Origin: Leucobacter zeae
GTDB lineage: Bacteria > Actinomycetota > Actinomycetes > Actinomycetales > Microbacteriaceae
Assembly: GCF_016758175.1 (NCBI RefSeq)
Contig: NZ_QYAB01000002.1
Location: forward strand, 1-64,000
Length of the DNA: 64,000 nt
Direction of reading: 5' to 3'
Shown here: positions 20,233-35,403 of the stretch, one piece after another
Layout: each line of letters opens with the position of its first letter
How positions within the stretch are numbered: the first letter of the stretch is position 1
Translations under genes and position numbers: made by a program
The notes under the pieces: model-generated
The model's database searches: none
Seen by the model: only the letters and a program-made list of their open reading frames with translations
Told to the model about the DNA's origin: nothing

Positions 20233-21259
20233 CGACGCGCGGCGCGAGCCGCGGGACGCCGAGGGCGTCGAGCCGGCCCGGGGCGCGGGCGCCTCTGGCG
20301 GGGAGTTCACGGTCGACGGTCAGGCCGTCGACATCGACCTCGCCGAGTGGGGCTGGCCCGCGGACCGCGGCAGCGGCGGGGGCGAGGCGCCCGTCCGGGA
20401 TGAGCCGGCCGACGATCGGCCGCGTCTGCAGAAGGCGCTCGCGCACGCGGGCGTCGCCTCCCGCCGCGCCTGCGAAGCGCTCATCACCGGCGGGCGCGTG
20501 ACCGTCAACGGGGCCGTCGTGCGCGAGCTCGGCAGCCGTATCGATCCGGGTGACGAGGTGCGCGTCGACGGCGTGGTCGTGCAGCTCGACGCGAGCAAGC
20601 GCTACTTCGTGCTCAACAAGCCCCGCGGGGTCGTGTCGACGATGTCGGACGAGCACGGGCGCCGCGACCTGCGCGAGTTCACGGACCGCATCGATGACCG
20701 GCTCTACAACGTCGGGCGCCTCGACACCGACACCTCGGGGCTGCTCGTGCTCACCAACGACGGCGACCTCGCGCATAAGCTCGCGCACCCGAAGTTCGGA
20801 GTCCAGAAGACCTACATCGCGAAGGTGTCCGGTCGGGTGACCCCCGCGACGATCCAGCGGCTCAAGACCGGCATCGAGCTCGAGGACGGCCCGATCCATG
20901 CCGATGCCGCGAAGCTGCTGCCCGGCGAGGGCGGGAGGAGCTCGCTCGTCGAGATCACACTGCACTCGGGCAGGAACCGCATCGTGCGCCGGATGCTGGC
21001 CGCGGTCGGGCACCCCGTCGAGGAGCTCGTGCGCCGCCGGTTCGGCCCGCTGAACCTCGGAACGCTCCGGCTCGGCGAGATGCGCGAGCTCTCGGATGCC
21101 GAGCGCGGTGCGCTCCTGACGGCTGCCGAGGGCGGCGGCGGGCGCCGCCGGCCCCCCTCGGCGGGTCGGCCGGGCGACGGCAAGGGGGCGAAGGGGATGC
21201 GCGGGATCGCGGCCCGCGGCAACCCGCACGGCCGCGGCGGTCCCCGCAAGACCCGCTAG
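20219..21259 (+). CDS. rluB: 23S rRNA pseudouridine synthase RluB family
   Basis: This enzyme converts a uridine in 23S rRNA (2605 in E. coli) to pseudouridine. The 346-residue protein has an N-terminal extension of about 60 residues, an S4 domain (QKALAHAGVASRRACEALI), and the RsuA/RluB catalytic motif GRLDTDTSGLL with the catalytic Asp. The C-terminus is a basic Gly/Arg/Lys-rich tail ending GRGGPRKTR, likely to bind RNA. ATG 20219 is preferred over GTG 20204, since GAAGG lies eight bases upstream. It ends the scpAB operon. Its stop overlaps the stop of the convergent dehydrogenase gene by four bases. Confidence 0.93.
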   Translation: MSRSDDARREPRDAEGVEPARGAGASGGEFTVDGQAVDIDLAEWGWPADRGSGGGEAPVRDEPADDRPRLQKALAHAGVASRRACEALITGGRVTVNGAVVRELGSRIDPGDEVRVDGVVVQLDASKRYFVLNKPRGVVSTMSDEHGRRDLREFTDRIDDRLYNVGRLDTDTSGLLVLTNDGDLAHKLAHPKFGVQKTYIAKVSGRVTPATIQRLKTGIELEDGPIHADAAKLLPGEGGRSSLVEITLHSGRNRIVRRMLAAVGHPVEELVRRRFGPLNLGTLRLGEMRELSDAERGALLTAAEGGGGRRRPPSAGRPGDGKGAKGMRGIAARGNPHGRGGPRKTR

Positions 21260-22401
21260 TTCTGCGCCGCCGCCGATCGGCTCGGTTCGAGGGTCGCGAG
21301 GACGCCGAGCAGCGAGCCGGGAACGAGGGCGGCGTCTGCGGCGCCGTCGCGCACGATCGCGGCGATGCGCGAGCCGAGCTCGGCGGTGGAGGCGCCCATG
21401 CCCGGTCCCGAGAGCTCGGGCAGCGAGGCCAGCACCTCGACCGTCGCCGCCTCGACGGCGCGCGCGGCATCGGCTTCGCCGAGGTGGCCGAGCATCAGCG
21501 CAAGCGAGAGGATCGCGCCGGACGGGTTCGCCCAGCCGGTGCCCGCGATGTCTGGGGCCGAGCCGTGGATCGCCTCGAACATGCTGGGCGCCGAGCCGTC
21601 GAGGTTGAGGTTCGCGCTCGTCGCGACGCCCAGTCCGCCCTGGATCACCGCGCCGAGGTCGGTGATGATGTCGCCGAACAGGTTGTCGGTGACCACCACG
21701 TCGAAGCGCTCGGGGGCGAGGGGCAGGTGGAAGCACATGGCGTCGACGTGCACGTAGTCGGTCTCGACCTCGGGATAGCGGGCGCCGACGTCGGCGACGA
21801 CCTCCTGCCAGAGCTGCCCGGCCGCGACGAGGATGTTCGTCTTGTGGCACAGGGTCAGCCGCTTGCGCCGGCCGGCGGCGAGGCGGAACGCGAAGTCGAC
21901 GACGCGCTCGATGCCGGCGCGGGTGTTCAGGGACTCCTGCATCGCGACGGCGTGGGGCGTGCCGGCGTGCACGGTGGACCCGCGTCCGACGTAGGCGCCC
22001 TCGGTGTTCTCGCGCACGATCACGAGCTCGCAGCGCTCGGGGGTGAGGCCCGCGATGGGCGTCGGGACGCCCGGGTAGAGGCGGACCGGGCGGACGTTCG
22101 CCGCCTGCTGGAACCGCTGGCGCATCTCGAGGATGAACCCCCGCTCGAGGATGCCAGGGGTGACGCGCGGGTCGCCCATCGAACCGAACAGGATCGCATC
22201 GGCGCCCCGCAGCTCCGCCTCGAGCTCCGCGAACAGCTCGCCGGTTTCGAGGTAGTGCTCCGCCCCGGCCGCGTACGTGCGGCGCTCGGTGCTGAAGCCG
22301 TAGCGGGCCTCTGCGGCGTCGAGCACGTCGAGCGCGCAGCCGACGACCTCGGGGCCGATCCCGTCGCCGGGGAGCACGGCGATCTGGTGGGAGTGCGTCA
22401 T
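21256..22401 (-). CDS. Isopropylmalate-dehydrogenase-family beta-decarboxylating dehydrogenase
   Basis: This is a 381-residue metal- and NAD-dependent enzyme that oxidises and decarboxylates a substituted malate. Catalytic Tyr 137 (TEGAY) and Lys 187 (CHKTN) and metal-binding Asp 220, 244 and 248 are present. The substrate loop (GILERGFILEMR) resembles actinobacterial LeuB loops with hydrophobic changes. By family it could be LeuB of leucine synthesis. However, it shares one operator and divergent promoters with a catabolic aldehyde dehydrogenase operon, which favours a catabolic substrate such as 3,3-dimethylmalate (inference). GGAAGGA lies six bases before the ATG. No other leucine genes are near. 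Confidence 0.88.
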   Translation of the reverse strand: MTHSHQIAVLPGDGIGPEVVGCALDVLDAAEARYGFSTERRTYAAGAEHYLETGELFAELEAELRGADAILFGSMGDPRVTPGILERGFILEMRQRFQQAANVRPVRLYPGVPTPIAGLTPERCELVIVRENTEGAYVGRGSTVHAGTPHAVAMQESLNTRAGIERVVDFAFRLAAGRRKRLTLCHKTNILVAAGQLWQEVVADVGARYPEVETDYVHVDAMCFHLPLAPERFDVVVTDNLFGDIITDLGAVIQGGLGVATSANLNLDGSAPSMFEAIHGSAPDIAGTGWANPSGAILSLALMLGHLGEADAARAVEAATVEVLASLPELSGPGMGASTAELGSRIAAIVRDGAADAALVPGSLLGVLATLEPSRSAAAQN

Positions 22402-22447
22402 CGGGGGTCCTTCCGTCGGGGCGCGAGCGGCGCGGCGAGAGCCGGCA

Positions 22448-22476
22448 TTGTTGCGTCGTGGATCTTGAACTATATT
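22448..22476 (+). promoter_or_regulatory. Promoter of the aldehyde dehydrogenase operon
   Basis: TTGTTG (22448-22453) and TATATT (22471-22476) are separated by exactly 17 bases. This is one of the few near-consensus sigma-70 type promoters in the window. Transcription should start near 22483, inside the operator. Confidence 0.7.
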
Positions 22477-22499
22477 AAATGGTAAGGCCACTCAAGCAA
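22472..22499 (-). promoter_or_regulatory. Divergent promoter of the dehydrogenase gene
   Basis: On the minus strand TTGCTT (22499-22494) and TAATAT (22477-22472) are separated by 16 bases. The operator lies in the spacer, so one bound protein could block both divergent promoters. Confidence 0.55.
22479..22492. promoter_or_regulatory. GntR/FadR-type operator, site 1
   Basis: ATGGTAAGGCCACT, with core TGGTAAGGCCA, has the near-palindromic TGG...CCA shape of operators bound by FadR-subfamily GntR proteins. The same 14 bases occur exactly at 33147-33160 beside a GntR gene of this family. Confidence 0.7.
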
Positions 22500-22510
22500 G
22501 GATTCAGCGC

Positions 22511-24016
22511 ATGCACGCAACGCCCCCACGCCTCGCCCCCGCGGGCGCCCTCCCCATCGGCGCCGGCTGGCGCGAGTTCGCGGAGGCGTCGGACGTCGTC
22601 TTCCCCTACGACGGTTCCGTGATCGGTCGTGCGCCGGTGAGCCGCGCGGCGGACTCGCTCGATGCGCTCGACGCCGCCGAGGCGGCGCGGACTGAGGTCG
22701 CCGCACTCACGACCGCCGAGCGGAAGTCGATCCTGCTCGCGGTGCACGACCGGCTGCGCGCCGACGCGCAGCGCTTCGAGGATCTGCTGGTGCTCGAGAC
22801 CGGGAAGCCCCGGATCGACTGCCGCACGGAGGTGAACCGCACGATCGTCACTCTGCAGGCCACGGCGGAGGAGGTCTCGCACGTGCGCGGCGAGACCGTG
22901 CCGCTCGATCTGCAGGATCTCGGCCGGGGCATGATCGGCTACTACACGCGCAAGCCCGCTGGCGTCGTCGTCGGCATCGCCGGCTTCAACTACCCGGTGC
23001 TCCTCGCGACCCACAAGCTCGCGCCCGCGATCGCAGCCGGCTGCCCGGTTGTTCTGAAGCCCGCGCCGAACACCCCGCTCGCCACCATCGAGCTCGTCGC
23101 CATCGTGCGCGAGACGCTCGCCGAGCACGGCGTCACCGGTGCCGCGGTGCAGCTCGTGAACGGCGGCCCGGAGGTCGGCGAGACGCTCGTGCGGGATCCC
23201 CGCGCACAGGTCGTGTCGTTTACCGGTTCCGCGAAGATCGGCCATCTCATCGCGCAGCAGTCGGCGCCGCGCAAGGCCCTGCTCGAGCTCGGCTCGAACA
23301 CGGGCTTCATCGTCGCGGCCGACGCCGACGTCGAGGCCGCCGTCGACGCCGTGCTGCGCGGCGGCTTCTACGCGAACGGCCAGGCCTGCATCTCGGTGCA
23401 GCGCGTCGTGCTCGAACGCCCGATCGCCGAGCGGTTCTCCGAGCGCCTCGTCTCGCGCATGGGGGAGCTCGTCGTCGGGGACCCCAGGGACATCGCGACG
23501 CACGTCGCGCCCGTCATCAACGCCGCGTCCGCGGACCGGATCCGCGCGACCGTCGACGACGCGCTCGCCGCGGGCGCCGCGCTGCTCAGCCCCGCCGAGA
23601 TCCCGGCTCCGGGATCCGGGACCGAGGGCGCGTCCGCGGCCCTCGTCGCGCCGATCGTGCTCGGCGATGTGCCCCGCGACGCCGAGGTCTGGCGCGAGGA
23701 GATCTTCGGGCCCGTCGTCTGCCTCACCGTCGTCGACTCGGTCGACGAGGCGGTCGACGTGGTCAACGACTCCCGCTACGGGCTGCAGGCCGCGATCTAC
23801 ACCGCCTCGCTCGAGAGCGCGTTCGCGGCGGTCGAGCGCCTCGAGGTCGGCGGCGTCGTCGTGAACGAGATCCCCGGCTTCCGATCCGACATCATGCCGT
23901 ACGGCGGCGTCAAGGACTCTGGCATCGGCCGCGAGGGCCCCCGCTACGCGATCGAGGAATTCACCGTCACCCGCATGGCCATGATCCGCCCGACCCCCCG
24001 AAAGGTCTCCGCATGA
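22511..24016 (+). CDS. NAD(P)-dependent aldehyde dehydrogenase
   Basis: This is a 501-residue cytosolic aldehyde dehydrogenase. It has catalytic Cys 293 (GQACISVQR), general base Glu 259 (LLELGSNTG), Asn 160 in GFNYPV and cofactor Lys 183 (VLKPAPN). It oxidises an aldehyde to the acid; the substrate is not known. It is the first gene of a two-gene operon whose second gene is a short-chain dehydrogenase (four-base overlap), so the pair probably oxidises an alcohol to an acid in two steps. A strong promoter with the GntR operator at its start site lies upstream. Under the pantothenate hypothesis it would convert 4-dehydropantoate to 3,3-dimethylmalate. Confidence 0.93.
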   Translation: MHATPPRLAPAGALPIGAGWREFAEASDVVFPYDGSVIGRAPVSRAADSLDALDAAEAARTEVAALTTAERKSILLAVHDRLRADAQRFEDLLVLETGKPRIDCRTEVNRTIVTLQATAEEVSHVRGETVPLDLQDLGRGMIGYYTRKPAGVVVGIAGFNYPVLLATHKLAPAIAAGCPVVLKPAPNTPLATIELVAIVRETLAEHGVTGAAVQLVNGGPEVGETLVRDPRAQVVSFTGSAKIGHLIAQQSAPRKALLELGSNTGFIVAADADVEAAVDAVLRGGFYANGQACISVQRVVLERPIAERFSERLVSRMGELVVGDPRDIATHVAPVINAASADRIRATVDDALAAGAALLSPAEIPAPGSGTEGASAALVAPIVLGDVPRDAEVWREEIFGPVVCLTVVDSVDEAVDVVNDSRYGLQAAIYTASLESAFAAVERLEVGGVVVNEIPGFRSDIMPYGGVKDSGIGREGPRYAIEEFTVTRMAMIRPTPRKVSA

Positions 24017-24816
24017 ACGCCGCCCAGGCAACCCCCGACTACGCGAAGCTGTTCCGCCTCGACCACCGCACGGTCGTGGTGATCGGTGCGGGCAGCGGGA
24101 TCGGCCGCGAGGCCGCCCAGGCGCTCGCCGCGCAGGGGGCGCACGTCGTCGTCGCGGACTATTCGCTCGAGAGCGCGGAGCGCACCGTCGCGATGATCGG
24201 CGAGTGCGGCGGCGTCGCCGAGGCGTACGAACTGAACGTGCTGGACGATGCGGCCGTCGAGACCGCGGCGGAGCGCTTCGGCACCGCCGCCGCGCTCGTG
24301 TTCACCGCGGCGACGAACGTGCGCAAGCGCATGGACGACTACTCGATGGACGAGTTCGATCGGGTCGTGAACCTCAACCTGCGGGCCTCGTTCCAGCTGA
24401 TCCGTCGCTTCGGCGCCCGGTTCGCGGCGAACGGCGGCGGCTCGATCGTGGGCTTCGCGTCGATCCGCGCGCAGGTCGTCGAGCCGGGCCAGGGCGTCTA
24501 TGCGGCGACGAAGGCCGGACTGGTGCAGCTCGCGAAGACCGCGGCTGCCGAGTACGGCGATGCAGGCGTGCGGGTGAACGTCATCGCGCCAGGGGTCGTC
24601 GAGACGCCGCTCACGGGCCAGATCCAGGCCGACGAGGAGTGGTACGGCGCCTACGCCAGGAAGGCCGCGCTCGGCCGCTGGGCGCGCCCCGACGAACTGG
24701 CGGGCGCGGTCGTGTTCCTCGCCTCGGACGCCTCGACGTTCGTGACCGGATCGACGCTCACCGTCGACGGCGGCTGGACCGCGATCGACGGCCGGTACAC
24801 TCCGCCGGCATCGTAG
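24013..24816 (+). CDS. Short-chain dehydrogenase/reductase
   Basis: This is a 267-residue classical SDR oxidoreductase. It has the cofactor motif GAGSGIG (about 25-31), an acidic residue after the second strand (VVVADY) that favours NAD, catalytic Ser 150 and the Tyr 163/Lys 167 pair in YAATK, and the usual C-terminal TVDGGW. It probably oxidises a hydroxyl group to the aldehyde used by the aldehyde dehydrogenase whose stop it overlaps (ATGA). In the proposed pathway it would be pantoate 4-dehydrogenase; that assignment is inference. Confidence 0.93.
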   Translation: MNAAQATPDYAKLFRLDHRTVVVIGAGSGIGREAAQALAAQGAHVVVADYSLESAERTVAMIGECGGVAEAYELNVLDDAAVETAAERFGTAAALVFTAATNVRKRMDDYSMDEFDRVVNLNLRASFQLIRRFGARFAANGGGSIVGFASIRAQVVEPGQGVYAATKAGLVQLAKTAAAEYGDAGVRVNVIAPGVVETPLTGQIQADEEWYGAYARKAALGRWARPDELAGAVVFLASDASTFVTGSTLTVDGGWTAIDGRYTPPAS

Positions 24817-24874
24817 GGGCGGCGCGGACGGACGTCGCCCGCCGTCGCGGGGCGCGGCGGCCGGGCTGCCGAGG

Positions 24875-25660
24875 TCAGTCGCCGCGTCGATGGATCGCGA
24901 GGTCGGACCTCCCGGGCGCGATGGCGGGGTCCAGGGTGCGGCTCCGGGTGTAGTCGCCTCCGCGCATGCTGCGGAAGGGGATCGGCGTTTCCTCAGCGAG
25001 ACCCGAGATCCGCGCGCGCAGGCGTGCGGTCTCCCGGGCGATGTCGGAGCTGTCGAAACCGTCCGCGTCCGCAATCGCGTGCACCGGGAGTACCTCGACC
25101 CCCGTGTAGAAGAGCGTGCCGTGGATGAGGCCGAACAGGATCGAATCGAGGTCGCCTGCGATGCCGCGCGGACCCATCGCCGACGCGGACTCGCCGAAGG
25201 AGACGACGATCAGCGCTCGGGTGCCGGTGAGCAGGCCGTCGCCGTACTTGCGCGTGCGGCCGGTCGCGGGATCGACGACATCGAACCCGAATCCGGCGGT
25301 GAGGACGCGGTCGAACCAGCCTTTGAGGATGGCGGGAACCGAGTACCACCAGAGCGGGAACTGGATGACGACGACGTCGGCCTCCCGCAGTTTCCGCTGC
25401 TCGTCGAGGATATCCGAGGCGAGGCCGCGCGACGCGGTCGCGCGTCCCCACCGCTCCAGGAAGGTGCCCGGCTCGCGGCCGCTGGCGCCCAGGTCGCAAG
25501 TGGTCAGCACCGGGTCGAATCCCATCGCGTAGAGGTCGCTCACGGCCACATCGTGCGTGCGTTCCAGTTCGGCTCGCGCCGCCGCGAACAGCTCGCGATT
25601 GAGGGAGTGCTGCTCGGGGTGCGCGAGGACGTAGAGGGCTTGCGGTCGGGATCGGCTCAT
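24875..25660 (-). CDS. NAD(P)H-dependent flavin quinone reductase (MdaB/NQO family)
   Basis: This is a 261-residue flavodoxin-fold oxidoreductase. It has the N-terminal FMN/FAD-phosphate strand [17 protein letters not shown] and the [20 protein letters not shown] motif of the quinone-reductase family, which reduces quinones by two electrons and limits quinone stress. It diverges from an HxlR-family regulator across 77 bases and is the likely target of that regulator. It is transcribed against the SDR gene, with 58 bases between the two stops. Confidence 0.9.
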
Positions 25661-25737
25661 GGCACCATCTCAGCAGGTCGCACGCGCTCGGGGAAGTACG
25701 CACTTTCTCGGCAGATACTGACGGATGGGATAGTGAT

Positions 25738-26109
25738 ATGCGCTCGGGAACGAAGCACGCGCTCTCGGTCTGCCCGGTCGAGGTGACCGTGAGCGTGGTC
25801 GGCGGGAGCTGGAAGCTGACGATCGTGCAGAAGCTGCTCCGCGGCGCCCTGCGCTTCGGCGAGCTGCGTCGCGCGGTCGGCGACGTCACGGAACGGGTGC
25901 TCACCCGTCAACTCCGCGAGCTCGAAGCCGACGGCCTCGTGCACCGAGAGGTCTTCGCAGAGGTGCCGCCGCGCGTCGAGTACTCCCTCACGCCATTGGG
26001 GGAGTCGGCCCGGCCGCTCGTCGACCTCATGGAGGCCTGGGGGCGCAACTGGGTGCAGGCGACGGGCGCTGCCGCGGAGGCGGGGCCTCAGGCGCGGCCG
26101 CTCGAGTGA
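25738..26109 (+). CDS. HxlR family transcriptional regulator
   Basis: This is a 123-residue winged-HTH regulator of the HxlR/YodB family. The first cysteine of the family lies in CPVEVTVSVVGGSWKL, followed by LRFGELRRAV and ERVLTRQLRELEADGLV as the recognition helices. Such single-cysteine regulators often sense quinones or aldehydes, which fits the divergent quinone-reductase gene. GGATGGGA lies seven bases before the ATG. Its stop is ten bases from the convergent amidase stop. Confidence 0.92.
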   Translation: MRSGTKHALSVCPVEVTVSVVGGSWKLTIVQKLLRGALRFGELRRAVGDVTERVLTRQLRELEADGLVHREVFAEVPPRVEYSLTPLGESARPLVDLMEAWGRNWVQATGAAAEAGPQARPLE

Positions 26110-26119
26110 GGCCGGGCGC

Positions 26120-27529
26120 TCAGCGCACCGCGTCCCAGTCCACGGTCGCCCCGGGCCCGCGCACCGTCTCGAACCAGTGCGCCACGCGCAGCAGTCGGTC
26201 GTCCGAGCCGATGGGTCCGGCGATCTGGAGGCCGACCGTGCGCCCGTCGGCCTGGATCCCGGCGCCGATCGATACGGCGGGCTGCCCGGACATGTTGTAG
26301 GGCACGGTGAACGAGATGTGCCCCATGGTCGCGAGCGGATCGGTGATGGGCATGGGATCCTCTGCCGCGAACGCCGCGACGGGCGTCACGGGAGAGAGCA
26401 CGAGGTCGTAGGGCGAAGTGGCCGCGCGGGTGAGGCGGGCCATCTCGTCGACCATGCCGCGGTTGCGGACGGTCTGCGCCGCCGAGAATCCGGCACCGGC
26501 CGCGCACCACTCGACGATGAAGGGCAGTACGCGCGCACGGTCCGCGTCGCTCAGCGGCTCGAGGTCGGCGTAGGAGCGGCTCCGCCAGAAATCGACGAGC
26601 CCGTCGAGCACGTCCGCGGGAACGAAGGGATCGAGCGGTTCGACCGTCGCGCCGGCTGACGCGAACCGTTCGGCAGCGGCCTCGATGAACGCGCGGGTGT
26701 CGGGCTCGACCGGCAGGCCCGAGCCCGCGTCGAGCTGCACCGCAACGCGCAGGCCGACGGGCGAGAGCGGTTCGGTCGACCAGTCCATCTCGGCGTACGG
26801 GCGCGTCAGGTAGTCGCGCGGGTCGGGGCGCGCGACGATCGACATCAGCCGGATCGCGTCGGCGGCAGTACGGGTCAGCGGGCCGGCGGCGCGGCCCGCA
26901 TAGGGCACGTCGAGCGGGATCAGTCCCTCGCTCGGCTTGAGTGCGGCGACGCCCTGCCAGGACCCGGGCAGACGGATCGAGCCGCCGATGTCGGTGCCGA
27001 TGTGGAAGGGGCCGTAGCCCGCGGCGGCGGCGGTGCCTGCGCCCGCGCTTGAGCCGCCCGAAGTGTGCGCCGGGTCGAGCGCCCCGCGCGTGATCCCGTG
27101 CAGGCTCGAGACGCCCGAGGAGAGCATGCCCCAGTCCGGCATCGTGGTCGAGCCGACGATCACGGTCCCCGCTTCGAGCAGGCGATCGGTCGTCGGGGCG
27201 TTGCGATCCGGAACGGGCGGGTTCGGGATCGCCGTGCCCGAGGGCTTCGGACGTCCCGCACGGGCGATGTTCTCCTTGACGGTGACCGGCACGCCGTCGA
27301 ACGCGCTGCGGGGCGCGCCGGCCCGCCAGCGGGCGGTCGACGCCGCGGCATCGGCGCGGACCTCATCGGGCTCGAACAGGTAGAGCGCGTTCAGCTCGGG
27401 CTCGCGCTCCGCGACCCTGGCGAGCACGCTCTCGGCGACCTCGCTCGGAGTGAGGGTCCCGTCCGCGTAGCGCGCGGCGAGGGAGCCGGCGTCGAGGTCG
27501 GCGAGGTTCTGCTCGGGGGTGGCGGTCAT
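26120..27529 (-). CDS. Amidase signature family hydrolase
   Basis: This is a 469-residue amidase with a complete Ser-cisSer-Lys triad: Lys 85 (TVKENIA), the SGGSSAG motif near 157-163 with cis-Ser 160, and nucleophile Ser 184 (GTDIGGSIR). It hydrolyses a C-N amide bond in the cytosol. It is not GatA, as no gatB or gatC is near and the context is catabolic. A weaker copy of the GntR operator lies 36-49 bases before the start, and the downstream-oriented importer operon carries the same control element. Pantothenase is a candidate function (inference). AAAGGA lies a few bases before the ATG. Confidence 0.92.
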   Translation of the reverse strand: MTATPEQNLADLDAGSLAARYADGTLTPSEVAESVLARVAEREPELNALYLFEPDEVRADAAASTARWRAGAPRSAFDGVPVTVKENIARAGRPKPSGTAIPNPPVPDRNAPTTDRLLEAGTVIVGSTTMPDWGMLSSGVSSLHGITRGALDPAHTSGGSSAGAGTAAAAGYGPFHIGTDIGGSIRLPGSWQGVAALKPSEGLIPLDVPYAGRAAGPLTRTAADAIRLMSIVARPDPRDYLTRPYAEMDWSTEPLSPVGLRVAVQLDAGSGLPVEPDTRAFIEAAAERFASAGATVEPLDPFVPADVLDGLVDFWRSRSYADLEPLSDADRARVLPFIVEWCAAGAGFSAAQTVRNRGMVDEMARLTRAATSPYDLVLSPVTPVAAFAAEDPMPITDPLATMGHISFTVPYNMSGQPAVSIGAGIQADGRTVGLQIAGPIGSDDRLLRVAHWFETVRGPGATVDWDAVR

Positions 27530-27564
27530 CCGGGGTCCTTTCGGGAGGTTCGGCTCGGGCCTTC

Positions 27565-27578
27565 GTGCTGAGGCCACT
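27565..27578. promoter_or_regulatory. Candidate GntR operator, site 3 (weaker)
   Basis: GTGCTGAGGCCACT matches 11 of 14 positions of the two exact operator copies, including the whole AGGCCACT half. It lies upstream of the amidase start, on the side expected for control of that gene. No clear -10 box was found with it. Confidence 0.45.
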
Positions 27579-27627
27579 GGTTCGGCTGGGAGGCTGCTGC
27601 CGGGGCGGGATCAGCCGCTGCAATCGA

Positions 27628-27692
27628 TATGGGATCCGCGGGTCGTATGGCCGTCGGTCCTGCGTGACGACGTATCGCTTGCCGATCCCATA
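27628..27692. repeat. Extragenic hairpin related to the one at 3.0 kb (copy 2)
   Basis: The arms are 27628-27649 and 27671-27692. They begin TATGGGATC and end GATCCCATA, and are less perfect inside but with several G-U pairs possible. The right arm shares GCCGATCCCATAC exactly with the element at 3093-3105. It lies just beyond the end of the ABC ATPase gene and before the amidase gene, a place where a terminator would be expected. Confidence 0.6.
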
Positions 27693-27728
27693 CCGTTGGG
27701 GGCGGAAGCCGCCCGCCCGCCCGATCGC

Positions 27729-29504
27729 TCAGCCGCTCTGGGCGAGCTCCTGGCGCAGGGTGAGCGACGAATCGATGAGGCGCTTCGTGTACGGATGCTG
27801 CGGATCCCGGTAGACGGCCTCGGTGTCGCCGGCCTCGACGATCTCGCCGGACTGCATCACGATCACCGAGTCGCAGAGGTGGCGCACGACGTTCAGGTCG
27901 TGCGACACGAACACGAGCGTCAGGCCGTACTCGTCGACGAGGTCCGCGAGCAGGTTGAGCACCTGCGCCCGGACGGAGACGTCGAGGGCGCTCACGGGCT
28001 CGTCCGCGACGACGACCTCCGGCCGGCAGATGAGCGCGCGCGCGATCGAGATGCGCTGCCGCTGCCCGCCCGAGAACTGGTGGGGGTAGCGCTCGGCCGC
28101 CGAGGCGGGCAGGCCGACGGCCTCCAGCATCTCGGCCACCATGCGCGAGCGCTCGGCTGCCGTCTCGGAGCGTCCGCGAACGAGCAGCGGCTCCGAGATG
28201 ATCTGCTCGACCGTCATGCGCGGGTCGAGCGAGCCCATCGGGTCCTGGAACACGATCTGCAGCTGCTGGCGGAGCTCCCGCAGCTGCGCCTCCCGGGCGC
28301 CGGCGACCTCGTTGCCCGCCACGACGGCGCTGCCGGAGGTCGGCTGGTCGAGGCCGGCGAGGATCCGGAGCAGCGTCGACTTGCCCGATCCCGATTCGCC
28401 GACGACGCCCAGCCGTCCGCCGCGCGGCACCTCGAACGAGATGCCGCGCAGGGCGCGCACCTCGGGAGCTGGCTTGAACAGGCTCGTGCGACCGCGGGTG
28501 TACGTGCGCACGAGATCGGTCACGCGCATGACCGGCTCGGACGCGGCGCCCCCGCCATCGGCGCGCCGCGCCGCATCCGCGCCGGTCTCCGGTGCGGATG
28601 CGGGGCCAGCGGGGTCCGTCGGGTTCGCCCCGTCGACCGTCGGAGGCACGTAGTCCTGCGCGCTCGCGACGGTGAACAGCCGGCCGTCAGCGTCCGTCGC
28701 CTCGAGGTCGGAGGCCGCGAGCAGCCCGCGCGTATAGGGGTGCTGCGGACGGGTGAAGATGTCCTCGGTCGCGCCCTCCTCGACCACCACGCCCTGGTTC
28801 ATCACGAGGACCCGGGTGCACATGTTCGCGACCACGGCGAGGTCGTGCGTGATGAAGAGCAGACCGGTGCCGCGTTCGCGCACGAGTTCGAGGATCAGGT
28901 CGAGCACCTGGCGCTGCACGGTGACGTCGAGCGCGGTCGTCGGCTCGTCGCAGAGCAGCAGGGACGGGTCGTTGGCGAGCGCCATGGCGAGCATCACGCG
29001 CTGCCGCTGCCCGCCCGAGAGCTGGTGCGGGTACGCGCGCGCTGCCTGGGCGGGATCCGGCAGCTTGACGGCGTCGAGCATCTCGACGGCCCGCCTGCGG
29101 GCCTCGGCCTTCGAGGGCGCCAAGCGGTGCTGCAGCATGATCTCGGCGACCTGATCGCCCGCGCGCATGAGCGGATTCAGCGCCGTCAGCGGCTCCTGGA
29201 AGACCATCGCCATGTCGCGGCCGCGGATCCGCATGAGCTCGCGCTCTGGGGCCTCGAGCAGGTTCCCCTCGTGCCCGTCGAGTCGCACCGAGCCGTCGGC
29301 GGTGACCCCGTTCGGCAGCAGGCCGAGCAGGGCGGTCGTGGTCATCGACTTGCCCGACCCCGACTCGCCGATGAGCCCGATCCGCTCCCCGCGTGCCATG
29401 TGCAGCGTGAAGTTCTCGACGAGCGTGCGCTGCGGGGTGCGGACGTTCAGTCCGTCGACGGTCAGCAGCGGCGTCTCCGGCCGCGTCTTCGTTTCGTGGG
29501 TCAT
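27729..29504 (-). CDS. Peptide-type ABC transporter, double ATP-binding protein (DppD-DppF fusion)
   Basis: This is a 591-residue protein with two complete ABC domains. The first (about 12-265) has Walker A GESGSGKSMTT, signature LSGGQRQRVMLA and Walker B LLLCDEPTTALD. The second (about 325-580) has GESGSGKSTLL, FSGGQRQRISIA and VVVADEPVSALD. Each is followed by the oligopeptide-transporter region HPYTRGLL or HPYTKRLI. An Ala/Gly/Asp-rich linker joins them. It powers import together with the two permeases and the lipoprotein encoded upstream. Its start overlaps the permease stop by one base. Confidence 0.94.
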   Translation of the reverse strand: MTHETKTRPETPLLTVDGLNVRTPQRTLVENFTLHMARGERIGLIGESGSGKSMTTTALLGLLPNGVTADGSVRLDGHEGNLLEAPERELMRIRGRDMAMVFQEPLTALNPLMRAGDQVAEIMLQHRLAPSKAEARRRAVEMLDAVKLPDPAQAARAYPHQLSGGQRQRVMLAMALANDPSLLLCDEPTTALDVTVQRQVLDLILELVRERGTGLLFITHDLAVVANMCTRVLVMNQGVVVEEGATEDIFTRPQHPYTRGLLAASDLEATDADGRLFTVASAQDYVPPTVDGANPTDPAGPASAPETGADAARRADGGGAASEPVMRVTDLVRTYTRGRTSLFKPAPEVRALRGISFEVPRGGRLGVVGESGSGKSTLLRILAGLDQPTSGSAVVAGNEVAGAREAQLRELRQQLQIVFQDPMGSLDPRMTVEQIISEPLLVRGRSETAAERSRMVAEMLEAVGLPASAAERYPHQFSGGQRQRISIARALICRPEVVVADEPVSALDVSVRAQVLNLLADLVDEYGLTLVFVSHDLNVVRHLCDSVIVMQSGEIVEAGDTEAVYRDPQHPYTKRLIDSSLTLRQELAQSG

Positions 29505-30415
29505 CAGCCGCGGCTCCCGTTCAGCTTCGGATCGAATCGGTCCCGCAGCCCATCGCCCAGCAGGTTGAATCCCATGACGGCGATCGCGATGGCGATGCCT
29601 GGCACGATGGCGAGCAGCGGGTGGGTGCCGAGGAACTGCTGCGACTCCTGCAGCATCCGGCCCCAGGACGGAGTGGGCGGCGGGGTGCCGAGCCCGAGGA
29701 AGCTCAGGCCGGCCTCGGCCAGCACCGCGAGTGCGAACGACACCGAGCACTGCACGACGACGATGCCGACGATGTTGGGCAGCACGTGCCGGATCGCGAT
29801 CCGCGTGCGGGACTGGCTCGCCGCGCGGGCTGCGAGCACGTACTCGGTGTTCATCACCTGCAGCGTGCCGGAGCGCGCGACGCGGGCGAAGGCCGGGATC
29901 GTCGAGATCCCGATCGCGACCATCGCGGTCAGCGTCGACGCCCCGAACACGGCGGCGAACATGATCGCGAGCAGCAGCGCGGGGAATGCGAGGGCGATGT
30001 CGGACGCGCGCATCACGACCTCCTCGATCCAACCGCCGCGGATCCCGGCAAGGATGCCGAGCGGGGTGCCGATGAGCAGGGCGATCCCGACCGAGATGAT
30101 CCCGACGAAGAGCGTGATCCTGGCGCCGACGAGCATGCCGGAGAACAGGTCGCGGCCGTACTTGTCGGTGCCGAGGAGGTGCGCACCGCTCGGCCCTTGG
30201 AGCCGGTCGGCCGCGTTCACCTGGATGGGATCGTAGGGCGTCCAGACGAACGACACGACCGCGGCGAGCACCACGATGCCGACGAGGACGAGCCCGGCGA
30301 CGAGGGTGGGGGAGAGGCTGCCGAGGGTGCGCCGGGTGCGCGGCGGGGCCGGTGCGGCGATCGCGGTCGTGCGGGGCGCCTGCGACGGCGGCGTCGGAAT
30401 GTGCTTCGTATCCAT
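29504..30415 (-). CDS. Peptide-type ABC transporter permease (DppC-like)
   Basis: This is a 303-residue inner-membrane permease. A proline-rich N-terminus (about 1-30) precedes the first helix. The OppC-type segment HLLGTDKYGRDLFSGMLVGA and the ATPase-contact loop EYVLAARAASQSRTRIAIRH are both present, with six predicted helices. It forms the pore with the DppB-like protein, whose gene is two bases upstream. Confidence 0.94.
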   Translation of the reverse strand: MDTKHIPTPPSQAPRTTAIAAPAPPRTRRTLGSLSPTLVAGLVLVGIVVLAAVVSFVWTPYDPIQVNAADRLQGPSGAHLLGTDKYGRDLFSGMLVGARITLFVGIISVGIALLIGTPLGILAGIRGGWIEEVVMRASDIALAFPALLLAIMFAAVFGASTLTAMVAIGISTIPAFARVARSGTLQVMNTEYVLAARAASQSRTRIAIRHVLPNIVGIVVVQCSVSFALAVLAEAGLSFLGLGTPPPTPSWGRMLQESQQFLGTHPLLAIVPGIAIAIAVMGFNLLGDGLRDRFDPKLNGSRG

Positions 30416-30417
30416 GG

Positions 30418-31365
30418 TCACGCGCTCTTTCGCATCCGCGGGTCGACGATCGTGTAGACGACGTCGATCACGAGGTTCAGGATCAGGGTGATGGCGACGA
30501 GCACCATCACGACGGACTGCACGGTGAGCAGGTCCCGGTTGCCGACCGCGTCGAGCAGCATCGAGCCGAGGCCGGGGATCACGAAGACCCGCTCGATCAC
30601 GACCGCGCCGATGATGAGGGCCGCGATCTGCACGCCCGTCACCGTGATGACCGGGATGGCGGCGTTGCGCATGCCGTGCTTGAGCAGCGCCGCGGTCGGG
30701 CTGAGCCCCTTCGCGCGGGCGGTGCGGAGGTAGTCCTCGCTCATGATCTCGAGCACGGCCGAGCGCACGTAGCGGGTGAGGATCGCGCCCTGCACGGATG
30801 CGAGCGCGAGCACGGGCAGGATCAGGCGGCGCAGGAAGTCGCCGAAGTCCTCGCCGGGCGGGGTCCACCCGCCCGCGGGCAGCCAGCCGAGCCCGACGGC
30901 GAAGACGAGCACGAGCAGGATGCCGGCGAGGAACCCGGGGACGGCGACGCCGAGCTGGGATCCGGCTCCGATGATCACGCCGGAGGCGCTGCGGTGCCTG
31001 ACCGCCGCGATGGTGCCGAGCGGGATCGCGGCGAGGAGCGCGATGACCATCGCCGTGAGCACGAGGATCAGGCTGACCTGCAGGCGGTCGACCACGAGCG
31101 GGCTGATGTCGGCGCGCGTCACGTACGAGGTGCCGAAGTCGCCCGTGAGCAGGCCGCCGACCCAGTCGAAGTACTGGACGACGAGCGGGCGGTCGGTGCC
31201 GAACTCGCGCCGGGTCTGCTCGAGCAGCTCGGGGCTCGCGTTCACGCCGAGCGCGACCTGCGCCGGGTCGCCGGGGATGGGGCGCATGAACAGGAAGACG
31301 ACGACCGTGGCGACGAGGAACGTCACCGCGAATCGCGCGAGGTTGATGAGTATCCGGATGGCCAT
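30418..31365 (-). CDS. Peptide-type ABC transporter permease (DppB-like)
   Basis: This is a 315-residue inner-membrane permease with the N-terminal helix typical of DppB (ARFAVTFLVATVVVFLFMR), the conserved GDPAQVALG, FGTSYVTRADIS, and the coupling loop EDYLRTARAKGLSPTAALLK. Six membrane helices are predicted. It lies 98 bases after the substrate-binding protein gene and is transcribed with it. Confidence 0.94.
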   Translation of the reverse strand: MAIRILINLARFAVTFLVATVVVFLFMRPIPGDPAQVALGVNASPELLEQTRREFGTDRPLVVQYFDWVGGLLTGDFGTSYVTRADISPLVVDRLQVSLILVLTAMVIALLAAIPLGTIAAVRHRSASGVIIGAGSQLGVAVPGFLAGILLVLVFAVGLGWLPAGGWTPPGEDFGDFLRRLILPVLALASVQGAILTRYVRSAVLEIMSEDYLRTARAKGLSPTAALLKHGMRNAAIPVITVTGVQIAALIIGAVVIERVFVIPGLGSMLLDAVGNRDLLTVQSVVMVLVAITLILNLVIDVVYTIVDPRMRKSA

Positions 31366-31463
31366 GCTGATCCTCTGGAAGACGGACGCCGCGGCGGTCG
31401 CCGCGGCCGTGGACGGGGTGGGGATGACGGGGCGACCGCCGGTGCGGCCGCCCCGTCACCGGG

Positions 31464-32990
31464 TCACTTCCAGGCGAGACCGGTGAGGTCCAGCGACTCC
31501 ACGATGGAGTTCTCGGGCATGCCCTCGAGGCCCGACTGGGTGATGACGATGTTCGGGAAGAGGAACAGCACGCCCGACGCCGCGTCGTCGACGATCTGCT
31601 CCTGCACCTGCTGCATGTCGGAGATGAAGCCCTGGTCGTCGGCCTCGTCGGCCTGCGCCGCGATCGGAGCGATCTTGGCGTTGTCGTATCCGATGTAGTA
31701 GTCGGGGTTGTTGAAGACCGTGAGCAGGTCGCGGGCTTCGACGGCGAGCACGGTCGTCATCTGATAATCGTGCTTCGTGAAGACCTCGTCGAGCCAGACC
31801 GCGGGGAACTCGGAGGACTCGATCGTGACGTCGATGCCGACCTCCTTGAGCTGCGAGACGACGATCTCCGAGACGGCCTGCGCGTAGGGGCGCGTCGGCA
31901 CGGAGTACGTGATCGAGAGATTCTCGGCGCCCGCCTCCTTGAGGAGCTGCTTCGCCTTCTCGGGGTCGTACGGGTACGCGTCGTTGAGGTCGACGTAGTA
32001 GGGGTCGGTCGGGGTCGCGTAGGTCGCGACGAGCGAGCCGTAGCCGTTCCAGGCCGTGTCGATGATGGCCTGCCGGTCGAGCGCGTAGAGCACCGCCTGG
32101 CGCACGCGCTTGTCGTCGAACGGCGCGACGCGGTTGTTGAAGGACAGCGAGACCTCGCCGCTCGAGGTGCCAGAGGTGACCGTGAACTGGTCGTCGTCCT
32201 TGAAGGTGTCGACGAGCTCGGGCGCCTGCAGGTTGACGATCGCGTCGACGTCGCCGGTGCGCAGCGCGTTGGTGGTGGCGGTGGCGTCGGCGAAGTACTG
32301 CAGCGTCACCCGATCCACTTTCGGGGCCTCGCCCCAGTAGTCGTCGCGGGTCTGCAGCACGATGTTCTCGTTCTGCTTCCACGAGTCGACGGTGAAGGGG
32401 CCGGTGCCGACGGGGGCGTTCGCGAGGTCGTCGACGCCGTCGGGCGAGAACATGGCCCCGACCGGCGTCGCCATGTCGAAGAGCCAGGCGTTGGAGGGGC
32501 GGCTCAGGTGGATGGCGACCTCGGTCGGGCTCGTCACCTCGACCTCCTCGACCACGTCCATCTTGGCCTTCAGCGTGGTGGTCCAGTCCGCCTGCACCCG
32601 CTCGATGCTGAACTTCACATCCTCCGCGTCGAACGCGTCGCCGTTCGAGAAGGTGACGCCCTCGTGCAGCGTGAAGGTGTAGGTCTTGCGGTCGTCGCTG
32701 ACCTGCCATTCCTCGGCCAGCTGGGGCACGATCTCGCCGCTCTGGTCGACGCGCACGAGGCCCTCGTAGACGTTGGTCATGAGCGCCTGCGGGATCGCCG
32801 AGCCCGCGGTCTTCGTGAAGTCGAGGTTCACGGGCGCGCCGGTCAGCGCGACGGTGACGTCGGTCCGGTCGGAGCCGCCCGACTCGGTTCCGCCTGAGCC
32901 GGCGGAGCCCGCCGAGCAGGCCGTGAGGGCGAGGGTGCCGACAGCGACGAGTGCCGCGGCGAGGGTCAGTGGGGTCTTGCGTCGCATCAT
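31464..32990 (-). CDS. ABC transporter substrate-binding lipoprotein (family 5)
   Basis: This is a 508-residue extracellular solute-binding protein of the dipeptide/oligopeptide family. The signal peptide ends in the lipobox LTAC (Cys 25), followed by a Gly/Ser linker, so it is anchored outside the membrane. The family pattern GPFTVDSWKQNENIVLQTRDDYWG and the ALDRQAIID region are present. It captures the imported compound; peptide-family proteins also bind other amide-containing solutes. The first codon is ATG 32990 or ATG 32987; AGGAA fits the second slightly better. It heads the importer operon and diverges from the GntR gene across a shared operator. Confidence 0.93.
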   Translation of the reverse strand: MMRRKTPLTLAAALVAVGTLALTACSAGSAGSGGTESGGSDRTDVTVALTGAPVNLDFTKTAGSAIPQALMTNVYEGLVRVDQSGEIVPQLAEEWQVSDDRKTYTFTLHEGVTFSNGDAFDAEDVKFSIERVQADWTTTLKAKMDVVEEVEVTSPTEVAIHLSRPSNAWLFDMATPVGAMFSPDGVDDLANAPVGTGPFTVDSWKQNENIVLQTRDDYWGEAPKVDRVTLQYFADATATTNALRTGDVDAIVNLQAPELVDTFKDDDQFTVTSGTSSGEVSLSFNNRVAPFDDKRVRQAVLYALDRQAIIDTAWNGYGSLVATYATPTDPYYVDLNDAYPYDPEKAKQLLKEAGAENLSITYSVPTRPYAQAVSEIVVSQLKEVGIDVTIESSEFPAVWLDEVFTKHDYQMTTVLAVEARDLLTVFNNPDYYIGYDNAKIAPIAAQADEADDQGFISDMQQVQEQIVDDAASGVLFLFPNIVITQSGLEGMPENSIVESLDLTGLAWK

Positions 32991-33139
32991 TGCTTCCTGT
33001 CGCAGGTGGATCCGGCCGGGGATCGGCCGCTCGGGGCGCCGGCGGGCGGGTGTGCTGCCGGTTGATTCGAACGGTGCTGGTGGCACCCCTCCGCATGCAT
33101 CTTCCTCGATGCGCGCGCTCGAACCAAGAGGTGTAAACC

Positions 33140-33168
33140 AGGATACATGGTAAGGCCACTTGTTCCAG
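33140..33168 (-). promoter_or_regulatory. Putative promoter of the importer operon
   Basis: On the minus strand TATCCT (33145-33140) forms a TANNNT -10 box. CTGGAA (33168-33163) lies 17 bases upstream as a weak -35. The operator falls within the spacer, as it does at the other divergent promoter pair. Confidence 0.45.
33147..33160. promoter_or_regulatory. GntR/FadR-type operator, site 2
   Basis: ATGGTAAGGCCACT is identical to the 14 bases at 22479-22492. It lies between the divergent importer and regulator genes, within the importer promoter spacer and over the regulator's -35 position. This placement fits repression and autoregulation. Confidence 0.72.
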
Positions 33169-33171
33169 CGC

Positions 33172-33177
33172 TAAGAT
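33172..33177 (+). promoter_or_regulatory. -10 element of the GntR gene
   Basis: TAAGAT predicts transcription from about 33184. This leaves ATG 33176 outside the transcript and supports the TTG start at 33269. Confidence 0.45.
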
Positions 33178-33268
33178 GAGGGCACTTCGGCTCATCGATG
33201 AGCGCTCCGGGTCCGTGCTCGAGCGTTTCGGGCCGGATCGAACTCGAGCCGCTCAGGAGGCGCCGCCG

Positions 33269-34024
33269 TTGTCCAGCCCCCACAGCTTCGCCCCAGCGGT
33301 CCCGGTGCACACGTATCAGCGCATCGTCGAGCAGATTGAGCACGCGATCGTCTCGGGGGAGATCCCCGTCGGGTCCCAACTGGCCAGCGAGCGCGAGCTC
33401 ATGGTGCAGTTCGACGTCAGTCGGCCGACGGTGCGCGAGGCCCTGCGGGTGCTGCAGAGCATGGGGCTCATCGAGTCGCGGCCCGGGACGCGCGGCGGGC
33501 CGCAGGTGCTGGCCCCGTCGCCGGACGTGCTGCGTCGGTCGCTGCGGGCCATGCTCGGCACCGCGGCGCTCGACCTCGCCGAACTGGTGCAGTACCGCGT
33601 GGTCCTGGAGGGCTCCGCGAGCGCGCTCGCGGCGCTGGAGCACTCGGACGGCCAGCGCGAGGAGATGCGGATTGCGGTCGATCGGATGCAGCTCGCGGCG
33701 GAGGCGAACGCCGAGGAGTTCGCCGACCTCGACCTCGCGTTCCACCAGCTCATCTGGGCCGCGAGCGGCAACCGGATCTTCGCGCTCAGCGGCGAGGCCG
33801 TCTCGGGCGTGCTGCGCACCGTGATGCACCGCGACGCCGAGGGCGCCCACCACGACAACCGCGTGAAGCTCGAGTCGGCGACGATCGACCGCGGGCTCTT
33901 CGACGCGATCGCGCGACGCGACGCCGCCGAGGCCGGGAGGATCGCGCGGGGGGCCGTCGCGAATCGATTCGGACCGCTGCTCGAACCCGAGCAGCGGGAG
34001 GCGCTCGCGCTGCTCGCCGGGTGA
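33269..34024 (+). CDS. GntR family regulator, FadR (FCD) subfamily
   Basis: This is a 251-residue regulator. The N-terminal winged HTH has the GntR pattern IVSGEIPVGSQLASERELM followed by SRPTVREALRVLQSMGLI. The C-terminal all-helical FCD ligand-binding domain (about 95-235) has the metal/ligand pattern DLDLAFHQLIW and a His-rich segment near MHRDAEGAHH. TTG 33269 is chosen because AGGAGG ends eight bases before it; ATG 33176 lies within the predicted -10 box. It is the likely owner of the operators at 22479, 33147 and 27565, and a repressor relieved by a pathway acid (inference). Confidence 0.88.
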   Translation: MSSPHSFAPAVPVHTYQRIVEQIEHAIVSGEIPVGSQLASERELMVQFDVSRPTVREALRVLQSMGLIESRPGTRGGPQVLAPSPDVLRRSLRAMLGTAALDLAELVQYRVVLEGSASALAALEHSDGQREEMRIAVDRMQLAAEANAEEFADLDLAFHQLIWAASGNRIFALSGEAVSGVLRTVMHRDAEGAHHDNRVKLESATIDRGLFDAIARRDAAEAGRIARGAVANRFGPLLEPEQREALALLAG

Positions 34025-34056: not shown

Positions 34057-35403
34057 TCATGCGGATGAGCGCTTCGCGCGATTCCGCTCAGGAGCGGGTC
34101 CGCGCAGCGCTGCGAGGGACGCTTCGCCCGCCGGGCGGCGAGAGCCGAGCCCGCCGCATGCGGTGAGCACTGCCGCCAGCGCGACGAGCGCGGCGAACCC
34201 GAGAACTGCGATCGGGAGCCCGACACGGGCCGCCGCGAATCCGAGGGCCAGCACCGGCACCGCGCTGCCGAGGTAGGTGACCGTGTAGATCGCGCTGACC
34301 GTCGCGCCGTGCCGCGCAGGGGGCACCGCGGCCACTGCTCGGCCGAACGCCGACTGGAATGCGAGGCCCTGCCCGATCCCCGCGGTGATCGCGCCGGCGA
34401 TGACGAGTTCGAGGCGGCCGGTCAGCGGAGCGAGGCCGAGGAGCAGGATCCCGACGGCGAGCAGCGAGAGCCCCACCGGTTCGCGCCGGTCGCCGTGCAC
34501 GGGGATGAGCTGGACCGACGCCGAGGCGAGCAGGGTGAGCGCGGCGAGCAGCCCGACCGCGGTGCGGGACTCGACGGGCAGCAGCGCCGCGAACGCGGAG
34601 GGCGCGAGTGACAGGCAGAATCCGAAGAGCGCGAAACTCAGGAACCCGATGCCCGCAGCGCGGCGCACGGCCCGTTGCTCGGTACCCCGCTCGCCGTTGC
34701 GTGGGGTGCCGCGCTCGCCGCCGCGCTCCCGTGCACCGCTCCGTCTCCGGCGGCCTCGCGGATCCGCGGACAGCGGCACGGCGTCCTCCGCCCGGCAGGC
34801 GCCGTGCGGCACGACCGCGAGGATGACCGGGGCCACGAGGGCGAGCAGGAGCGCGAGCGCGACGAAGGGGGTGCGCAGCGGCGCCCCGGCTTCCGAGAGC
34901 GCGCCGCCGAGCACCGGGCCGAGCGCGACTCCGCCCGAGCTCGCGAGCAGCGTCAGCCGCCCCGCGGTCCGCGGCCGCCCGGAGAGCAGCACGCGGAACG
35001 CGCTCGAGGCCGTTCCCGTCGCCGCCGCGATCGCGAGGCCCTGCGCCGCCCGGGCGGCGCAGAACCACGCGAGCGTCGGAGCGAGCGCGAGGCCCAGCGT
35101 GGCGAGTGCACCGACGGCGAGCGCCGAGACGAGCACGGTGCGGCGGTTCAGGCGGTCGGCCAGCCGCCGGAAGAGGATCAGTCCCGCGAGCATGCTGAGC
35201 ACGTAGCTGGAGAAGGCGATCGTGATGCCGAAGGCGTCGATCCCGAGCCGCTGCTCGAGCAGCGGGTAGAGCGGCGTCGAGAGGTTCGCGGCGACGAGGA
35301 GCGACGCGAGCGTCAGGGCGGTCAGTGCGACCCGGATCCTGGGACGGGCCGTGGTGACGGCGGGTGCGAGGGGCCGGGCGGCGAGAGCATGGGGTGCGCT
35401 CAA
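34057..35403 (-). CDS. MFS transporter
   Basis: This is a 448-residue major facilitator with twelve predicted membrane segments. The loop between helices 2 and 3 has the MFS pattern [18 protein letters not shown]. The central cytosolic loop is long, Arg/Gly-rich and of low complexity. TTG 35403 is preferred as start because GGAG lies seven bases upstream; the frame stays open for 41 codons before it with no support. It resembles drug or amino-acid efflux proteins. It diverges from an AsnC/Lrp-type gene, which suggests it exports an amino acid or related compound under that regulator. Confidence 0.85.

Follow-up and report, generated by a model that had tools for sequence, protein, structure and literature searches.

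Gene content of the cluster

We analysed a stretch of 64,000 nucleotides from Leucobacter zeae (assembly GCF_016758175.1, contig NZ_QYAB01000002.1, positions 1 to 64,000; hereafter the window), in which a gene cluster at positions 21256-34024 probably serves the import and breakdown of pantothenate (vitamin B5). A sequence-only reading had listed there an amidase, a short-chain dehydrogenase/reductase (SDR), an aldehyde dehydrogenase (ALDH), a LeuB-family enzyme, an ATP-binding cassette (ABC) importer and a FadR-type regulator, and all of these were confirmed as open frames.

The cluster begins with a LeuB-like gene of the Iso_dh family on the reverse strand (21256..22401; PF00180; NF002898, 443 bits). 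Its presence agrees with the earlier description; the end given there, 22491, belongs to the longest open reading frame, and the start at 22401 is preferred, as the NF002898 match spans residues 2-350 of the protein begun at that position. On the forward strand follow the ALDH gene (22511..24016; PF00171), with the motifs ELGS and GQAC, and the SDR gene (24013..24816; PF13561), with the motifs GAGSGIG and YAATK. The SDR gene overlaps the ALDH stop codon, so an alcohol and an aldehyde dehydrogenase gene are paired, as the pantothenate pathway would need. The amidase-signature hydrolase gene (26120..27529; NF005450, 588 bits with a cut-off of 458) lies on the reverse strand together with a complete family-5 ABC importer. 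The latter consists of an ATPase with two domains fused in a single chain (27729..29507; PF00005 twice, oligo_HPY), the permeases PermC (29504..30421; PF00528) and PermB (30418..31365; PF00528, PF19300), and an SBP_bac_5 substrate-binding protein (SBP, 31464..32990; PF00496, 304 bits), a lipoprotein judging by eye from its N-terminal sequence. The last gene, on the forward strand (33176..34024, start perhaps 33305; PF00392 and PF07729), encodes a regulator of the FadR type of GntR proteins, with a GntR winged helix, an FCD domain and a palindromic TGGT-N3-ACCA-type putative operator nearby.

Conservation among related loci

The comparison covered 55 loci with an ALDH ortholog, including the window and the Arthrobacter dokdonellae plasmid locus L004. 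The ALDH search of genome contigs kept the best 80 loci, among which L005-L043 are close, cluster-type matches and L044-L084 are remoter ALDHs without the gene set. Loci were gene-called with our own script, and some of the 55 end at contig ends. Three were dropped before counting: L115 (near L010), L119 (same contig as L013) and L131 (no ALDH). A class-wide search found the cluster in at least 16 of 394 genomes and an earlier count in at least 4 of 396, both lower bounds with three to four candidates scored per genome.

A typical cluster contains a GntR regulator, an SBP, two permeases, one or two ATPase genes, an ALDH, an SDR and a hydrolase, and the ALDH-SDR pair with importer, GntR regulator and hydrolase is conserved in several actinobacterial families. 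The window ALDH, which serves as the cluster marker, has orthologs of 51-65% identity in L004-L043. An SDR match of 53-72% identity was found in 50 of the 54 other loci (51/55 at ≥53% when the window is counted).

Amide hydrolases and the ThnT clade

Thirty of the 55 loci encode the amidase, 17 encode an M20 deacylase of the ArgE/DapE type, and none encodes both, a count whose weight is lowered by kinship among the loci. Because the two never occur together, they may do the same job, which suggests interchangeable hydrolases of one N-acyl amide. In detail, 24 loci have the amidase only, 6 the amidase with an S58 hydrolase, 13 the M20 with an S58 hydrolase, 4 the M20 only, and 8 neither amidase nor M20. 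Four of these eight are cut by a contig end (L013, which carries a partial S58 gene, L024, L030 and L036) and four are not (L004, L015, L035 and L124). Lys85, Ser161 and Ser184, which we take to be the triad of amidase-signature enzymes, are invariant in all 26 aligned cluster amidases (L011, L018, L041 and L043 were left out of the alignment).

The S58 hydrolase is present in 19 of the 55 loci. Among solved relatives, ThnT is nearest to the copies of L028 and L117 (343 and 348 bits); the next S58 protein scores 152 and 145. A tree of S58 genes, drawn from 15 genomes, places each of the 18 near-full-length cluster copies with ThnT on a branch supported at 100/100, separate from six generic S58 rows, two of which come from the window genome. 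The short L116 copy was excluded, the generic L151 yielded no row, and on the ThnT side there are also two rows with long branches, L168 and L169, whose position is doubtful. The 15 cluster copies with a single full-length alignment are 45-59% identical to ThnT, the generic rows 28-35%; those of L025, L122 and L125 aligned to ThnT in pieces only.

ThnT belongs to thienamycin biosynthesis. According to published passages, it breaks the pantetheinyl group down to cysteamine after the attachment of this group to the carbapenem (PMC6097109), and is termed a pantetheine hydrolase (PMC13062082). The S58 proteins of the relatives' clusters belong to the same clade. By similarity, many relatives' clusters thus encode an enzyme for which the nearest characterised protein releases pantothenate from the pantetheinyl group, and we regard these proteins as the decisive clue that the substrate would be a pantoyl compound. 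ThnT itself is a biosynthetic enzyme, however, and the window's own cluster has no such gene.

Enzymes of the Iso_dh family

The window genome (3.47 Mb, 6 contigs) contains three Iso_dh genes: the LeuB-like gene, a canonical leuB at G000:C2:442948 (L086:4949-6019) adjoining an ilvE-type transaminase gene, and a third on contig C1. With NF002898 (cut-off 393) the LeuB-like protein scores 443 bits versus 538 for the canonical LeuB. The sequence-only reading had raised the possibility that the LeuB-like gene is the only leuB of the genome, and this was rejected, the separate leuB having been found at C2:442948. Nor is it the sole leuB in the other 12 cluster-bearing genomes, of 14 compared. Of the 14 genomes that have a LeuB-like gene, 13 also carry the canonical one; in G024 the canonical match falls into two parts, and the LeuB-like gene lies away from the cluster.

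LeuB-like genes are found in 12 of the 55 loci and TDH-like genes in 5, with one more truncated. In the Iso_dh tree 15 LeuB-like rows form one group (97/85), sister to 11 canonical LeuB rows, and five TDH-like cluster rows form another (100/98); the cluster enzymes thus come, as placed by this tree, from two clades. Thirteen of the LeuB-like rows are at ALDH clusters and two, L131 and L138, were added by similarity (L003 yielded no row and the truncated L029 was excluded). LeuB and tartrate/D-malate dehydrogenase belong to the same Iso_dh family as the window enzyme. The window protein does not group with canonical actinobacterial LeuB, yet it passes the NF002898 cut-off.

Lys187, presumably catalytic, is conserved in 38/38 Iso_dh rows and Arg94 in 37/38. 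The LeuB-like enzymes differ from LeuB at position 90 and mostly at position 190, both of which we take to be isopropyl-pocket residues of isopropylmalate dehydrogenase. Position 90 is Leu in 11/11 canonical LeuB rows, Ile (14) or Val (1) in the 15 LeuB-like rows, Ile in 5/5 TDH-like rows, and Leu (5), Arg (1) or Ser (1) in seven other rows. Position 190 is Val in 11/11 canonical rows, Ile in 13/15 LeuB-like rows and Ala in 5/5 TDH-like cluster rows.

A shared putative operator

Each of the two divergent promoters of the cluster carries one copy of the identical 14-mer ATGGTAAGGCCACT, with the core TGGTAAGGCCA: the first between the LeuB-like and ALDH genes (22479-22492, given without strand), the second between the SBP and GntR genes (33147-33160, likewise). 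With up to two mismatches permitted the window has two matches with 0.06 expected, and no shuffle had two, which bears out the earlier proposal of an operator common to both promoters. The looser core TGGTNNNRCCA is not significant by itself in the window (3 found, 1.23 expected, 13/100 shuffles reach 3), and over both strands of the whole window genome TGGTNNGRCCA occurs 16 times versus 41 in the control, i.e. below the control. Since the amidase, ATPase, permease and SBP genes are co-directional, the LeuB/ALDH and SBP/GntR promoters together could govern all of them.

Among the relatives, TGGTCNGACCA stands at the equivalent promoter position in many. Of the 41 loci comprising the window and L004-L043, 29 have a TGGTNNNRCCA-type site at a cluster promoter, as do 12 of the 16 loci L115-L130; in Nonomuraea one also stands ahead of a separate SDR gene. 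The flanks outside the pattern are conserved: the preceding base is C in 32/37 aligned sites, and the following bases are G in 33/37 and T in 35/37. These sites were picked from pattern hits with unrelated places excluded, so the TGGT and CCA ends follow from the pattern and new evidence comes from the flanks alone. In 24 genomes, 19 of which contain it, the 15-mer ACTGGTCNGACCAGT has 31 occurrences, versus 7 for its reversed control. This count is partly circular, as the 15-mer was derived from cluster sites of the same genomes; it shows that few other sites exist. Because 24 of the 31 occurrences are the cluster or SDR sites themselves and the remaining 7 equal the control count, the putative regulon is essentially the cluster. 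Those 7 sites (in L087-L092) were rejected as regulon members; six of them are intragenic by our own gene calls.

We take the TGGTNNNACCA-type palindrome to be the operator type of FadR-type GntR regulators, and the window cluster has the same type. Family-5 dipeptide/oligopeptide importers under such regulators share with it a full importer and a FadR-type protein. They serve peptide use only, whereas SDR, ALDH and Iso_dh genes accompany the window importer.

Elsewhere in the window genome, a region with another family-5 ABC importer (L085, G000:C3:399000-418000) contains genes for a GntR regulator, a gamma-glutamyltranspeptidase, an M24 peptidase and a POT transporter. Its sites at 5885, 12391 and 12515 (TGGTCAGACCA and TGGTCCGACCA) are nearer to the relatives' operator than the window cluster's copies are. 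Cross-regulation between this region and the window cluster is possible.

Candidate beta-alanine genes and plasmid loci

A PRK06062 class-III aminotransferase gene lies beside the clusters L031, L117 and L130, and by coordinates about 800 bases ahead of the compared stretch at L120 (genome G789). At L031 it adjoins a CoA-acylating (methyl)malonate-semialdehyde dehydrogenase gene (MMSDH; 659 bits, cut-off 448.5). An aminotransferase with a CoA-acylating semialdehyde dehydrogenase is a usual route for beta-alanine, and these neighbours would fit its use. Mere co-presence is weak, as 207 of the 394 class genomes have PRK06062, and adjacency alone counts; for the four loci its Poisson chance is 1e-5 to 3e-4, calculated post hoc with assumed means. 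The Acidiferrimicrobium locus L031 (7693-16987) holds candidate genes for each step of the proposed route, which starts at pantetheine and ends at 2-oxoisovalerate and acetyl-CoA. The neighbours of L007 and L015 were considered as valine genes and then reassessed; their matches are to CoA enzymes of the fatty-acid type and to a GABA-type transaminase, with scores under the curated cut-offs.

A plasmid protein search with the SDR returned 17 records, 15 of them from Thermus. The plasmid loci of T. thermophilus AA2-2, T. thermophilus SG0.5JP17-16, T. oshimai JL-2 and T. brockianus were examined (gene sets at L172 8208-16208, L173 7502-14186, L174 6346-9801 and L171 4964-12964), and SDR, M20 and MMSDH genes are present in all four. 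Both T. thermophilus loci have a class-III aminotransferase, identified as PRK06062 in the one locus scanned; the T. oshimai and T. brockianus stretches have no such annotation, in a gene table that is incomplete. In the three loci compared, the Thermus M20 shares 48-49% identity with the L028 enzyme, and the SDR shares 53-54% with the window SDR and 60-62% with the nearest actinobacterial ones.

On the Arthrobacter dokdonellae plasmid pDCT5 (L004) the order is LeuB-ALDH-SDR-FadR and then panC. Ahead of this cluster stand a GntR gene and a gene of the DUF2520 family, the latter presumably a frequent neighbour of panC, and within 15 kb there are methylcitrate-cycle, acyl-CoA dehydrogenase, thiolase and dihydrolipoamide acyltransferase genes. 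The pDCT5 panC has no match in the other loci compared.

The panC gene adjoining this one cluster, together with the optional occurrence of the S58 enzyme, could point to salvage or detoxification of pantothenate or pantetheine (e.g. of pantothenamide-like compounds) in place of carbon or nitrogen supply. We judge this very improbable, since the oxidative SDR-ALDH-Iso_dh branch would destroy pantoate and is needless in salvage; the window genome, moreover, has its own panC elsewhere.

Proposed pathway

Bacterial pantothenate breakdown was described biochemically in Pseudomonas fluorescens as the sequential action of a pantothenase, a pantoate 4-dehydrogenase, an aldopantoate dehydrogenase and a dimethylmalate dehydrogenase. 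Each of these four chemistries is matched here by a gene family in one regulon. The clusters compared here are from Actinobacteria and Thermus, not from Pseudomonas. The sequence-only reading had arrived at pantothenate from matched chemistry only, and that proposal is now supported by independent lines of evidence: the replacement of amidase by M20, the ThnT-clade S58 proteins, the beta-alanine-type neighbours, the panC neighbour and the conserved operator. For these reasons we give the import and breakdown of pantothenate a probability of roughly 0.78 as the role of the cluster.

Gene content, catalytic motifs, operator sequence, linkage, the mutual exclusion of amidase and M20 and the relatives' ThnT-clade membership are direct observations. 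All substrates, the transcription units, the transport direction, the inducer and the assignment of enzymes to steps are what we infer. The FadR-type regulator would control the genes for import and breakdown, and the ABC importer would take up pantothenate. The amidase, as pantothenase, would cut it to D-pantoate and beta-alanine. The SDR, as D-pantoate 4-dehydrogenase, would oxidise the 4-hydroxyl of pantoate to 4-aldopantoate, and the ALDH, as 4-aldopantoate dehydrogenase, would convert this to (R)-3,3-dimethylmalate. Oxidation and decarboxylation by the LeuB-like enzyme would then give 2-oxoisovalerate, which would enter valine catabolism. Beta-alanine would be handled by the aminotransferase and the CoA-acylating semialdehyde dehydrogenase encoded beside some relatives' clusters. 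Among these putative assignments, those of the amidase to pantothenase and of the SDR and ALDH to the oxidation of pantoate are firmer. The assignment of the LeuB-like protein as dimethylmalate dehydrogenase is plausible and the least secure.

Titles cited in PMC10393543 report a bacterial pantothenate hydrolase in 1966 and 1979, and a passage of the same paper gives the protein identity of pantothenase as unknown as of 2023 (PMC10393543). Among the matches listed for the open-licence PMC literature (titles and abstract starts), no gene assignment for pantothenate degradation was found. It is fairly likely that the genetic basis still lacking for the bacterial breakdown of pantothenate and pantetheine is supplied, in Actinomycetota and Thermus, by this regulon family, taken jointly with all of the following components: one of two unrelated pantothenases (amidase-signature or M20), an optional ThnT-like pantetheine hydrolase, pantoate and aldopantoate dehydrogenases, a dimethylmalate dehydrogenase from two Iso_dh lineages, and beta-alanine enzymes in some clusters. 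If the pantothenate assignment is true, there are gene candidates for the whole route, several activities of which have so far been without genes, and bacteria have one way to recover beta-alanine from pantothenate. The NF002898 call would then mislead by naming the LeuB-like enzyme a 3-isopropylmalate dehydrogenase. An old biochemical question becomes directly testable.

Evidence against the assignment and alternative explanations

Several observations weigh against pantothenate breakdown. Genes of the ThnT clade also occur away from clusters (L156, L164, L165), and the window genome has none, both of its S58 copies being generic. The ALDH and SDR families are too broad for naming a substrate. 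No operator match was found in 12 of the 41 and 4 of the 16 loci, and panC adjoins the cluster at 1 of the 55. Part of the 55 loci are near-duplicates (L017/L018/L041/L043, L019/L023 and L030/L122 were retained). In the Thermus stretches neither a cluster-ALDH ortholog nor a LeuB was seen. An Iso_dh gene lies within about 10 kb in only 17 of the 55 loci (18 with the truncated one), leaving 37-38 without, and the LeuB-like query matches only once in 8 of 20 genomes (G001, G004, G005, G007, G008, G010, G013 and G016). In these single-match genomes the housekeeping LeuB would therefore have to perform the last step, or the route differs.

The broad enzyme families, the range of amides cut by solved homologues of the S58 and M20 enzymes, and the ThnT-clade genes outside clusters leave some room for the degradation of another 2,4-dihydroxy acid amide, or of a family of N-acyl amino acids, through the same reactions, with the relatives' ThnT-clade enzyme acting on a different amide. 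This is unlikely: the ThnT-clade S58, the panC neighbour, the aminotransferase and the CoA-acylating semialdehyde dehydrogenase all fit pantothenate or pantetheine, and we know of no other common natural amide of 2,4-dihydroxybutanoate.

Two members of the LeuB-like clade also count among the adverse observations. L131 (9384-10499) adjoins leuD and leuA in G288, where the sole other match to canonical LeuB is 46% identical. With no close canonical leuB in that genome, the clade can probably make leucine; it may be bifunctional, or recruited in both directions, and a displacement of leuB in G288 is possible. The residue Ile90 was reconsidered as a mark of dimethylmalate use, as L131, probably a working leuB, also has it. 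At position 190 L131 has Val as in canonical LeuB, and the cluster member L004 does likewise. L138 (4345-10638) sits with hydantoinase A/B genes and, by eye, a GntR-looking gene, which suggests a different pathway with the same dehydrogenase type.

A further alternative is that the LeuB-like gene of the window simply encodes a second isopropylmalate dehydrogenase of the ordinary kind, next to an operon for amide use, an explanation which concerns one gene and is otherwise compatible with pantothenate breakdown. It would account for the NF002898 score (443 vs 393) and for the leuD/leuA neighbourhood of L131. Set against this are the operator-bearing promoter common to the LeuB-like and ALDH genes, their linkage in several families, the canonical leuB also present in 13 of the 14 genomes (split in G024), and the second Iso_dh clade at clusters elsewhere, and we hold it to be quite improbable.

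Other genes in and beside the cluster

Between the SDR and amidase genes there are two genes that the sequence-only reading did not list, a flavodoxin-fold oxidoreductase gene on the reverse strand (24875-25660; PF02525) and a divergent HxlR regulator gene on the forward strand (25738-26109; PF01638). No homolog of the oxidoreductase was found at E 1e-20 in the other ALDH-ortholog loci compared, and the pair (24875-26109) is probably an unrelated insertion. At the other end of the cluster a gene for an MFS transporter (34057-35403) adjoins the regulator gene.

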